In this document: in pieces, positions 512 through 49,447 of the stretch
Layout of the letters: the number at the start of each line of letters is the position of its first letter
Numbering within the stretch: position 1 is the stretch's first letter
Origin: Fibrobacteria bacterium AD312
GTDB lineage: Bacteria; Fibrobacterota; Fibrobacteria; Fibrobacterales; Fibrobacteraceae
Reading direction: 5' to 3'
DNA: 64,000 nucleotides
Assembly (NCBI GenBank): GCA_001462345.1
Contig: LIUM01000023.1
Span: forward strand, 1 to 64,000
Program-made: the position numbers and the translations under genes
The notes under the pieces: generated by a model
The model's input: the letters and a program-made list of their open reading frames with translations, nothing else
What the model was told of the DNA's origin: nothing
Databases searched by the model: none

Positions 512-607
512 TATTGTCTCTGCATGAAAAAACTCGGTCACCCAAGTGCATTGGATCTTAGGTAATCGGGATTCTGGCATCTCCCGATTTCGGATTTTCA
601 CCGATTG

Positions 608-1656
608 TTAGGCCTCATCTGGTATTATTATCTTTGCTTTTATACCGACTTGATCCAATAAATAGAGCAATCCATTTCCGTCTATTAGTTCAATTGGTTT
701 TGAATTTGAAAATTCATATGCATCAGGCCCATATCCACTTGTAGCGACCAAAATTCCTTTTGCGGCCCCTTCATTTATCATTGTACCATACAAGTCTCGA
801 ACTGCTGAAACACCAACGGTATTCTTATATCGTTTAGCTTGGATAACAACTTTTCCACCAAGTATTGGCCTAAGATCGAAGGCTATTGCGTCAACTCCGC
901 CATCCTTTGATGATCTTGTCTGTTTTGTTTCTAACCCCATTTTTGAGAATAAATTGCTAACCAAATTTTCAAATTCAAATGGATTCAATTCCATCAAATT
1001 TGGTCTTGAATCCATTGAAGAAGCGACATCTTGTTCTGGAACATAGCGCTTATCAACCATTGAAAATTCGCGAATTGGTTTAACTGGTAATAATTCTGAT
1101 GGGGATGGAGAAAATGACGAAGATATATTCTTAACTGCTTTAATGGGGTCTATTTTATCAAGAACAAGTTCATTGAAGAAATCTTTACTTACAGAAATAC
1201 TTAGTAATACTGGAGATACGTTTTTCCCAGTTTTTTCGTCAATTGAGTTGACATATCCATTAAAATCTATAATCGATATAGCATCTGCTTGATCTGATTC
1301 GACCAATTCATGTATAGTTCTTAGCGCTAAGGAACAAATTAATCTACTATATGCAGTTTGTATTTCCTTTGGCTTTCGCAGTTTCTCAACTATCTCATTC
1401 TTTGCCTTTACATATTTATACCCTTTGATTCGTATGTTAAAGCTCCAACTTTTTCCTGCTGAGATTGAAGATAATCAATTTTGGCTTGTTTTATAGCTTC
1501 TTTCTCCATTCGAGCATTATCTCTAATATCGGCTTTTATGGATCGAATTCGAGCTGCTTCCATTCTTCGTTGATTCGCTTCAGCCTGTCGTGCTGCTCTT
1601 GCACTTGCACGAGCGGCAGCAATAACAATTCCTGTAAATCCACTACGTCGTCCCAT
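608..1656 (-). pseudogene. Mrr-type restriction endonuclease, frameshifted
   Basis: Two overlapping minus-strand frames together spell one protein. Frame 1 (1656 to 1408) starts MGRRSG and is a basic, Ala/Arg-rich helical N-terminus; frame 2 (open from about 1474 to 608) carries on with the rest and has no good start codon before the conserved part (first usable is TTG at 1306). Frame 2 contains an Mrr_cat-like domain: LNPFEFENLVSNLF, then DGGVDAIAF and VIQAKRYK, i.e. the D...QxK catalytic core of the PD-(D/E)XK fold, then GILVATSGYG. From memory of the family, both halves belong to one restriction-endonuclease type. Joining needs a -1 shift near 1420-1475. Either a 1-nt loss has broken it or it is read by frameshifting at A-AAG-GGT (1426-1420). 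The stop codon lies inside GCCTAAC (613-607), as in an integron cassette. Confidence 0.75.
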
Positions 1657-1693
1657 AATTTTCTCCGAGAAACAATGAGATCACAATTTGTAG

Positions 1694-1752
1694 GCCTAAC
1701 ATTTGCTTAACCTGTGTGACATAGCCTAGTAAGGTTGAAGCAGTTGTTATAT
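1694..1752 (-). other. attC recombination site (59-bp element)
   Basis: On the minus strand the site reads ATATAAC (outer box, one mismatch to RYYYAAC), spacer AACTG, CTTCAACC, a 20-nt loop region, GGTTAAG, spacer CAAAT, GTTAGGC (perfect GTTRRRY). The inner arms CTTCAACC and GGTTAAG pair except for one extra base, the extrahelical base typical of attC sites. The total of 59 nt is the classic size. It overlaps the stop codon of the upstream gene (1747-1749) and ends 37 bp before the start of the next one, as between two integron gene cassettes. No integron integrase is present in the window. Confidence 0.8.
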
Positions 1753-2709
1753 TATTTTTTTTGCTTGAATATAAGCATCCATTTTATCATCACTCAAAAC
1801 TTCATCATAATTACTTTTTATTTTTGATAGCTTAATATCTTCTGTTAAATCAGAAATAAACTTTCTAAAATCAGGAGATTCTTCTGATAACCGATTAACA
1901 GTATCCCAATCAATGGCCTTCTTATATTCTGCAGGAAATATTACTTCGGACTCATTTATTGAAAGTGTATTTAGTCGAATAACACCAATACCAAATGCAT
2001 TTGAAAGTCTTTGAAGTTCGTTTTTAAAATCAGGATCTTCATCCATTTTCATACACACTAAATAACCTTCATTCGCCCAGCTTGCATTGGATACTGCTTG
2101 AAAGAATGATTGTCTTAGGTTTGAAAAACTAAGTGCAATTTTCATTTCGAATGCAAATAGGTTTATTGAATTAACATTTAAATGCGATTGCAATTCTCTT
2201 GTTTCGATTGAGTAATCATTAAAAGGGAAATATACACCAACCAAATCTGGATGTAGCCATTCATTAGCACCTTTTGTTTTTTTATTAGAATTCTCATGGA
2301 AAATTGTCTTTGCATAACAACTAAAATGCGGATCAGAAAAAACATATTTTACTAGTAATGGATGTAATTCTCTTTCATTAAATTTGCTTTTTTCGATTGC
2401 TTCATCTTTCTTCTTAATCTGTTGTTCAATTATTTGCTGTGTTTGAATAGGATTAGTGTACTGACTACGAAGAATAAACTTGGAAGGTCTTTTTGATACT
2501 TGAATATACTCACTAGAATCATGCTGCTCTTTTATATTTGTATATAGCCGTGCACCAATTGTTGCCCACGGAGTTTTCCCTGTTGAACCGAGTTTTTTAT
2601 CCAAAGACAATTCTGCTGCTTTTTCCCAAATTTCTTCTGGAGTCATTGGTGTTTTAGTTGAATTAAAAACATCATTAATAAGATCAATGAATGTGTATTG
2701 AGCTTCCAT
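1747..2709 (-). CDS. HrgA-like protein: HARE-HTH plus PD-(D/E)XK-like domain
   Basis: 320 aa. The N-terminal 80 residues (FIDLINDVF, TPEEIWEKA, WATIGARLYTNI, KRPSKFILR) look like the HARE/HB1-ASXL restriction-endonuclease winged helix. The C-terminal part has HPDLVGVYFPF followed by LFAFEMKIAL; the D and ExK are spaced as in PD-(D/E)XK nucleases. The architecture resembles the COG2958/HrgA group, in which HrgA replaces a restriction gene in Helicobacter pylori. A role in restriction or DNA defence is inferred. The start ATG has GGAGAAA just upstream, preceded in turn by a small hairpin (TTGCCC-CTTC-GGGCAA, about 2719-2734). It sits directly upstream of the attC site and is probably cassette-borne. 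Confidence 0.7.
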   Translation of the reverse strand: MEAQYTFIDLINDVFNSTKTPMTPEEIWEKAAELSLDKKLGSTGKTPWATIGARLYTNIKEQHDSSEYIQVSKRPSKFILRSQYTNPIQTQQIIEQQIKKKDEAIEKSKFNERELHPLLVKYVFSDPHFSCYAKTIFHENSNKKTKGANEWLHPDLVGVYFPFNDYSIETRELQSHLNVNSINLFAFEMKIALSFSNLRQSFFQAVSNASWANEGYLVCMKMDEDPDFKNELQRLSNAFGIGVIRLNTLSINESEVIFPAEYKKAIDWDTVNRLSEESPDFRKFISDLTEDIKLSKIKSNYDEVLSDDKMDAYIQAKKII

Positions 2710-2738: not shown

Positions 2739-2775
2739 ATCACCCCATTTTACTCTTAAATTGCAACTATAATAT
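2739..2775 (-). promoter_or_regulatory. Duplicated promoter/leader segment, copy 1
   Basis: 37 bp matching 3647-3683 at 34 positions. On the minus strand it contains TATTAT, usable as a -10 box, about 60-70 nt before the HrgA-like gene. The same segment precedes the next gene upstream, so the two genes probably share promoter and control. Confidence 0.55.
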
Positions 2776-2976
2776 ACGCTATAAAAGCAGAAAATCATTC
2801 AAGAATAGTTAAAAACATTTATATAAAATCAAAATTTACTCACAAGATTCTTTGAAAAGATTATTATAATGGGAAATTCAAGTCCAATAGAGCCGCTCGC
2901 ATTATAGGAAAGGAAAAATAATCCATTAATGAATTGCCGACTGGAGCGAACGATCTACGAGACGACTGTATCAGCC

Positions 2977-3621
2977 TTACATTCTCAATGGATTTTTAGC
3001 GGAACGCCCTAATAAATCATACCATTTATAATCAGTATTTTTAAGTTTTATTCTTTTCTTCTCTTTATGTATTGAAAGTGGAATACCTGGATTAATGCTA
3101 CTGTAATCTATCTTTGAAATATTGTCTGTACGAGAGATGCAATGAATAATTCCAACATTATATTTTGGTGGATCATAATTAGTAACCCAACAAACGGCTA
3201 ACGTATCGCCTTTTTTGTATGCAAATGGAGTAAACAATGGAATAAAGTCATCTGAGTCAGAGAATATCTCTACTTGGTTGGTATCATTAAAATCAATGGA
3301 ATCATTGGCTTTTATTTTTTCCAAATTAATAAGACTATAAAGCGTGTCTTTGCTAATAATACCTTTAATACAAGTGGCGCCAGGATCTGCTAGACAACCT
3401 ATTACGCCATATACAATATTTCCTTGTATTGTATCCAGATCAAATTCGAAAATATACGATTCTCCTAATGTGTCTGCTTCACATGTGGTAACATCTATTG
3501 ATACGGCTATCCATGGAGATAATGAAAATGAACATTCATTTGAGTGTGTATATGATGAAATAGAAAATATTAATAGAATTCCAAATAGCACTTTTTTTGA
3601 ACTACTTATTTTATTTTGCAT
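2977..3621 (-). CDS. Secreted protein of unknown function with YDLLGR tail
   Basis: 214 aa. The start is the ATG at 3621, preceded by AGGAG 7 nt upstream; the frame is open back to a GTG at 3651 but that has no ribosome site. Residues 1-28 form a signal peptide (basic KKV, hydrophobic LFGILLIFSISS). The mature part has five or so cysteines and reads like a beta-rich domain. The C-terminus ends YKWYDLLGRSAKNPLRM; Y-D-L-x-G-R tails close many secreted Fibrobacter proteins, but here the tail seems cut short. No family was recognised. It lies between the duplicated promoter (3647-3683) and the HrgA-like gene, 267 bp away. Confidence 0.6.
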   Translation of the reverse strand: MQNKISSSKKVLFGILLIFSISSYTHSNECSFSLSPWIAVSIDVTTCEADTLGESYIFEFDLDTIQGNIVYGVIGCLADPGATCIKGIISKDTLYSLINLEKIKANDSIDFNDTNQVEIFSDSDDFIPLFTPFAYKKGDTLAVCWVTNYDPPKYNVGIIHCISRTDNISKIDYSSINPGIPLSIHKEKKRIKLKNTDYKWYDLLGRSAKNPLRM

Positions 3622-3646
3622 GGCTTGCTCCTGATTGTTGTGGCCT

Positions 3647-3683
3647 ATCACCCCGTTTTACTCTTATATTGCAATTATAATAT
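3647..3683 (-). promoter_or_regulatory. Duplicated promoter/leader segment, copy 2
   Basis: 34/37 match to 2739-2775. On the minus strand TATTAT/TATAAT-like bases lie about 55 nt before the ATG at 3621. Sequence outside the 37 bp is unrelated between the two copies. Confidence 0.55.
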
Positions 3684-11201: not shown

Positions 11202-11939
11202 TTATTTCTTTTCTTGTAACATCTTTTCTACTAATTCTACACTGAAACGATCTTGACGTTTTCCATTGATATAGAAGTTTGGAGTTCCTTGAACGCCTAC
11301 TTTAACACCCAATTGAAATTCTTCATTAATTCTTTTTTGCTTAGCGGAGTCAAGAACCATGTCTTTTTTGAATTTTTCCATATCTAAACCAACTTCTTTG
11401 GCAACTTTTTCAAATGTTTCTTGGGTGAGATCTCTAAAATGAGGAGCTAAAGCATAGCGGAATTCCCAGAACTTGCCTTGATTTTGAGCAGCTATACTTG
11501 CAGCAGCAGCAGCAGGGGCATTCGCATGGAAGCTTAGAGGAAAGTGTTTGTATACGAATTTAATGTCGTTAGGATATTTTTTCATTAAACCTTCAATCAC
11601 AGGAGCTACATTGCTGCAATAAGGGCATTGAAACTCAGTGAATTCAACAATAGTGAGTTTTGGATTCTTTGTATTTCCAAATACAGGGCTCTCGGCATCT
11701 GGAATATCCCAAATTTTATTTGCTTGTTCCATTTCAATGCGAATCTCATCAATTGAAATTCCTCTTTTTTCTAAACCATATTTTAAAACATCAAAATCAG
11801 CTTTGAGTGTTGCTAATTCTTTAGATAGACTATCTACTTGATTACTGAGTTTTTTAGTGGAACCACTTTGAGCTGCTGATGAACAGGCCGAAAGTGAAAA
11901 AATAAGAGCCGCAGAGGCGAGTAAAGAAAGAGATTTCAT
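11202..11939 (-). CDS. DsbA-like thioredoxin-fold lipoprotein
   Basis: 245 aa. Lipobox LSAC at about residues 16-19 predicts a lipid-anchored periplasmic protein. A coiled-coil-like stretch (LSNQVDSLSKELATLKADFDVLKYGLEKRG) precedes the thioredoxin fold with active site FQCPYC and cis-Pro segment VQGTPNFYINGK. It resembles DsbA/BdbD-type (Thioredoxin_4) disulfide oxidoreductases that form or shuffle disulfides in exported proteins. Positioned between the nuo operon terminator and the GH51 gene; whether it serves secreted cellulases is only a guess. Confidence 0.85.
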   Translation of the reverse strand: MKSLSLLASAALIFSLSACSSAAQSGSTKKLSNQVDSLSKELATLKADFDVLKYGLEKRGISIDEIRIEMEQANKIWDIPDAESPVFGNTKNPKLTIVEFTEFQCPYCSNVAPVIEGLMKKYPNDIKFVYKHFPLSFHANAPAAAAASIAAQNQGKFWEFRYALAPHFRDLTQETFEKVAKEVGLDMEKFKKDMVLDSAKQKRINEEFQLGVKVGVQGTPNFYINGKRQDRFSVELVEKMLQEKK

Positions 11940-49362: not shown

Positions 49363-49447
49363 GGAGGGATGGCCGAGTGGTTGAAGGCGCACGCTTGGAA
49401 AGCGTGTTTACTTAATTGTAACGAGGGTTCGAATCCCTCTCCCTCTT
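49363..49447 (+). tRNA. tRNA-Ser(GGA)
   Basis: Cloverleaf is clear: acceptor GGAGGGA with TCCCTCT, D-arm GGCCGAGTGG, anticodon stem CACGC/GCGTG with loop TTGGAAA (anticodon GGA), long variable arm typical of class II tRNAs, T-arm GAGGGTTCGAATCCCTC. The CCA end is not encoded. Confidence 0.96.

Follow-up and report, generated by a model that had tools for sequence, protein, structure and literature searches.

Several described systems resemble the locus reported here. Clusters of attC cassettes without a functional integrase nearby are known as CALINs (Cury et al., IntegronFinder) and have been proposed to be degraded integrons. In Xanthomonas, sedentary chromosomal integrons hold chromosomal cassettes in a single frozen array with an inactivated intI, and in class 1 and class 2 integrons, delta-attI-type cassettes are flanked by an extra attI-derived copy (PMC12901181). 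Delta-attI pieces are usually short, for example 14–18 nt of attI1 and only rarely its full 65 bp, and they are located downstream of the gene, inside the integron (PMC12901181). A 2021 review listed 14 phyla with integrons, Fibrobacterota not among them (PMC8618304), and neither the IntegronFinder 2.0 paper nor the archaeal-integron paper uses the word Fibrobacter. Among the hits of our literature search, which covered freely readable article texts, there was no report of integrons in Fibrobacter, Fibrobacterota or Fibrobacteres. Here we analysed a 64,000-nt stretch of the AD312 genome (the window) and conclude that positions 2922–607 very probably represent a small orphan integron cassette cluster, now a relic, that has its own attI-like platform (Table 1).

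Table 1 Features of the integron-like locus, in window coordinates
Feature	Position	Strand	Remarks
40-bp second copy of the end of the attI-like unit	3644–3683	-	GGGGTG↓ATAGGC; 90% identical
224-aa open reading frame (ORF), possible older cassette	2977–3651	-	No confident family; between two relic sites
Decayed attC loop piece	2931–2966	-	92% identity with the attC loop at C14:6544-6252
attI/promoter-like unit, 182 bp	2741–2922	-	Homologous to the intI-attI intergenic region on C11
Cassette gene 1, HARE-HTH domain, HrgA-like	1747–2709	-	Stop codon within the attC outer box
attC recombination site, 59 nt	1694–1752	-	R″ ATATAAC (1752–1746), spacer AACT, L″ GCTTcAACC, loop, L′ GGTTAAGC, spacer AAAT, R′ GTTAGGC (1700–1694)
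Cassette 2, Mrr-type (type IV-like) nuclease	608–1699	-	Begins TTAGGCCT after the G of the attC, finishes AGGCCTAA
82-aa ORF, probable N-terminal part of the Mrr cassette gene	1408–1656	-	Other frame
Mrr-type nuclease open frame	608–1465	-	Mrr_cat 5.7e-32 (Pfam); PADLOC mREase_IV 9.6e-59
Outer box of a second attC	607–613	-	GCCTAAC; rest lost or damaged

The attC site between the two cassette genes fits the RYYYAAC consensus at 6 of 7 positions in its first outer box and GTTRRRY at all 7 in its second; strictly, its last 6 nt are part of the next cassette. The inner boxes pair with an extrahelical base between them, the arms CTTCAACC / GGTTAAG leaving one base unpaired, and folding of the bottom strand yielded the canonical hairpin with one extrahelical G. 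A loose box-and-stem scan with 6 pairs gave 42–51 chance matches per shuffled 64 kb, and because it was swamped by such matches we relied instead on covariance models and on strict criteria (8 Watson–Crick inner pairs around one bulge, at least 13/14 in the outer boxes and a length of 50–70 nt). Under the strict criteria the whole structure occurred once in the window and in none of 40 shuffled windows. This count speaks against reading the site as a chance inverted repeat or a terminator, a reading favoured by the ordinary frequency of the GTTAGGC box taken by itself (5 in the window, 3.84 expected) and by a folding energy that is on its own unremarkable (z of -1.6 to -1.8); that reading is refuted by the existence of sister sites that share the ends of the window attC and differ in loop and gene, and we consider it extremely improbable. 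An Rfam scan of the window matched only a tRNA (49363–49447), and direct blastn of the attCs against plasmids gave no matches.

For the covariance searches we used two models, R1, composed of ten attCs from class 1 integron plasmids, and R2, composed of seven plasmid attCs and five sites of the AD312 genome, with the window site left out. R2 matched the window attC with 27.9 bits and an E value of 9.9e-5; E values from this model are rough, and its training set includes five same-genome sites and one class 1 attC whose ends are similar. The window attC was the sole significant match in 64 kb (the runner-up scored 11.4 bits) and one of nine genome-wide, distributed over contigs C5, C14, C47 and C23; two other held-out sites on C14 scored 25.6 and 20.0 bits. 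The helices of the R2 training set co-vary, with 91.7% of cells paired compared with 75.2% after shuffling (0/500). R1, a class 1-only model that was too narrow, did not detect the window attC and detected the sister site on C14 (25.9 bits, E value 1.6e-4).

The sequence-only reading of the window had placed an integron-type attC at 1694–1752 in a Fibrobacter-like genome, and the boxes, arms, extrahelical base and spacers that it described were all found there; the upstream gene terminates inside the outer box (TAA, 1749–1747), as it had stated. Its assignment was borne out by the R2 match (the narrower R1 being negative at the site), by the sister sites and by an attC in a relative described below, and the phylum by the identity of a neighbouring protein: PrfC is 85–87% identical to Fibrobacter and Fibrobacteraceae proteins, which means that no stray contig is involved. 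Sequence alone could hardly make the identification of 1752–1694 as an attC site any firmer.

The first cassette encodes a protein that is 50.9% identical to a Persicobacter plasmid protein and 31% identical to Helicobacter HrgA; it had no relatives in the genome contigs searched and no match among solved structures. The same reading had taken both flanking genes for restriction-type nucleases, which held for the Mrr-type gene; the HrgA-like protein is at most a candidate nuclease. PADLOC classes the Mrr-type protein as a type IV methyl-directed restriction enzyme, and one near-full-length relative was found among 60 related genomes (41%, G056). The Mrr-type gene is split across two frames at 608–1656; the start ORF and the nuclease ORF do not share a reading frame, so the gene either has been frameshifted or contains a sequence error. 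We also compared the first bases after the crossover G of each cassette with the reverse complement of its last bases, and the two ends matched over 6–9 nt in 13 of the 15 cassettes tested in the genome. The Mrr cassette matched over 8 nt. The HrgA cassette, which starts with GATGGGT, matched over 0 nt, and its start is therefore mutated or rearranged.

At its far end, the Mrr-type gene stops (TAA, 610–608) within a perfect outer box, as had been noted from the sequence, and the accompanying remark that no full second site is seen also holds, since there is an outer box with perhaps a damaged remainder at 613–550. We rejected 613–550 as a second full attC: it gave no significant model match, and the hairpin of this segment resembles C47 sequence near 11215–11249 of L076.

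Cassettes elsewhere in the genome carry ORFs of similar kinds: HNH and Mrr_cat-like ORFs on C5, HNH and a kinase scoring with PD-T4-6 models on C14, and a type II restriction–modification pair on C43. Judged by such sequence matches, defence-type genes appear frequent among the cassettes of this genome, and the cassettes may serve phage defence.

Upstream of the HrgA-like gene lies the 182-bp unit. Its identity is 85% both to a copy on C5 and to the stretch that separates intI from its first cassette on C11, and 72% to a copy on C14. Homology extends no further than the G of the predicted crossover point, G↓TT (G↓TTRRRY), where the junctions read GGGGTG↓TTAGAT on C11 and C14, ↓TTCGAT on C5 and ↓ATGGGT in the window. 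Full copies in the genome are confined to C11 (L011, 19261–19442), C5 (within L048, 8547–10662), C14 (within L049, 8246–773) and C23, the contig that starts with the window, and cassettes follow directly after each. An integrase gene, inactivated, stands beside the C11 copy only. On C5, a 20-bp piece resembling the DNA just 3′ of the C11 intI immediately precedes the unit, which suggests that intI was deleted there; no intI remnant was seen beside the C14 or C23 copies. We infer that deletion removed intI at some of the copies. Two relatives from the same family, G010 and G016, have one attI copy each in their incomplete genomes. A sigma-70-type promoter scan of the region gave sites that were not above those of shuffled sequence, so the promoter role of the unit is put forward conditionally. 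The unit would act as both attI and promoter, and the cassettes may be expressed from it.

The first half of the unit was also observed in G004, from another genus of the same family, at 75% identity over 97 nt (L077:6133-6236, on C50 of that genome), between amidase and glycosyl hydrolase genes and with no cassettes visible. This match is what would be expected if the unit were not an attI but a commonplace repeat, a promoter or an intergenic element, that precedes cassettes by coincidence. We judge that unlikely, as all four full AD312 copies immediately precede cassettes, one of them separates intI from its first cassette, and homology is lost at the very base predicted for the crossover. 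Beside the unit, the 40-bp second copy of its end, the 224-aa ORF and the decayed attC loop piece together suggest the remnant of an older integron (3683–2931). The unit, this older remnant and the frameshift in the Mrr-type gene had gone unnoticed in the sequence-only reading.

An integron-integrase model matched C11:94342-95028 and C43:31049-31279. The C11 gene carries a TAA stop and an in-frame loss between YEVDL and EAGVSI, and the absent segment comprises the IntI-specific helix and the HxxR box; of the C43 integrase, only 97 C-terminal amino acids remain. Matches on C27 and C49 are probably ordinary XerC/D-type recombinases, because the model fits them outside the IntI-specific region only. 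No integrase was found in the window by this model, in agreement with the sequence-only reading. A complete integron combines a functional intI with an adjacent attI and an array; the window lacks intI, and the C11 and C43 genes are broken. The assembly comprises 50 contigs, so that an intact intI could lie in a gap.

Other arrays persist in the genome, with two or more attC sites on each of C5, C14, C43 and C47. The C43 array (L012, 9995–18960) is of a different attC type, was identified by its matching cassette ends and follows the truncated integrase C terminus; the restriction–modification pair comes first in it. The starts of C14 and C47 share 60 bp within an IS3-like transposase (L049:1-676, L076:1-463), and this overlap inside an insertion sequence, in compatible orientation, indicates that the two contigs probably hold one array split by the insertion.

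Contig C23 starts at window position 1, and positions 1–200 are a 64-copy genomic intergenic repeat that is frequent at contig ends. Units repeated within this left-end repeat extend to about 510. The contig start and the repeat make the Mrr cassette look like the last one. The sequence-only reading had offered two possibilities, an array that goes on leftwards or an orphan cluster. The contig start and the 64-copy repeat at 1–200 give the first no support; the second is supported, as the window has no integrase and the integron integrase genes found elsewhere in the assembly are broken. The window might alternatively hold the cut edge of an integron that is complete and active, with intI and more cassettes in unassembled sequence to the left of position 1: the window begins where the contig does, and repetitive attC DNA frequently breaks assemblies (PMC9024848). 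Against this, the left end consists of an intergenic repeat and no cassettes, the genome is 99.3% complete and the integrase genes found in it are broken. Moreover, the array reads away from the attI-like unit at 2922; this orientation predicts intI on the right-hand side, which is occupied by the chromosomal genes TatD and PrfC. We regard a broken edge as very unlikely.

Comparison with relatives agrees with cassette behaviour at the locus. G004 contains an almost identical 59-nt attC, loop included, after a pair of ORFs of DUF262/HNH type (assigned by eye), and a near-identical attC next to a different gene fits what is expected of cassettes. At the TatD–PrfC locus, an aldehyde dehydrogenase gene lies directly against TatD in G002, of the same genus, and mfd is found in G004; cassettes are absent from this locus in both. 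Full-length integron integrases occur in relatives, including the same-family G010 and G016.

We propose that the relic cluster runs from the attI/Pc-like platform through the HrgA-like cassette, the attC at 1752–1694 and the Mrr-type nuclease cassette to the attC stump. An integron integrase would once have recombined the bottom strand of folded attC hairpins into attI at G↓TT. The array would now be frozen, in a genome that keeps arrays on C5, C14 (probably joined to C47) and C43 and whose integrases are broken. The origin of the locus can be read differently. Cassettes may have been put into secondary chromosomal sites by an integrase encoded elsewhere, at a locus that never had its own intI; secondary-site insertion is one proposed origin of attC clusters without an integrase (PMC8618304), and it would agree with the absence of an intI remnant beside C14 and C23. 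Plain off-target insertion leaves unexplained the 182-bp platform copies that stand ahead of the cassettes at each of these places, and C5 retains 20 bp of the intI 3′ flank directly before its unit; we see this origin as unlikely. A multi-platform integron, in which several attI-Pc loci built their own small arrays with one integrase acting in trans that was later lost, is a reading that we hold to be equally unlikely. The orphan, relic cluster with its own platform remains our preferred description.

These results document integron integrases, attC sites and cassette arrays in Fibrobacterota, with full integrases in same-family relatives. The several restriction- and defence-type cassettes fit the view of integrons as stores of anti-phage functions, and the repeated attI-like platforms raise a testable question, namely how one genome acquires several of them. 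The window attC also shares its ends, AACAACTGCTTCAAC...GTTAAGCAAATGTTAG, with the attC of the clinical aminoglycoside-resistance cassette aac(6')-Iae in a class 1 integron (AP025671, L064:5248-5309), from which it differs in loop and gene. The resemblance may point to where the aac(6')-Iae cassette came from, and the shared ends make Fibrobacterota, or their habitat, worth including when the origins of resistance cassettes are traced.

Set beside the described systems, the locus belongs to a known kind of element, here in a phylum that is little documented, and the repeated platforms are its unusual part. It resembles a CALIN in having attC cassettes and no functional integrase nearby, and differs in that the attI/promoter-like platform is kept and that one complete attC and a stump fall below the default IntegronFinder 2 threshold of at least two attC sites without an integrase. 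With the sedentary chromosomal integrons of Xanthomonas it shares chromosomal cassettes, an inactivated intI and a frozen array; the single array there contrasts with the several platform copies and arrays at dispersed chromosomal positions here. As in delta-attI-type cassettes, an extra copy of putatively attI-derived sequence flanks the cassettes, but here it is 182 bp long and stands ahead of whole arrays at separate loci.
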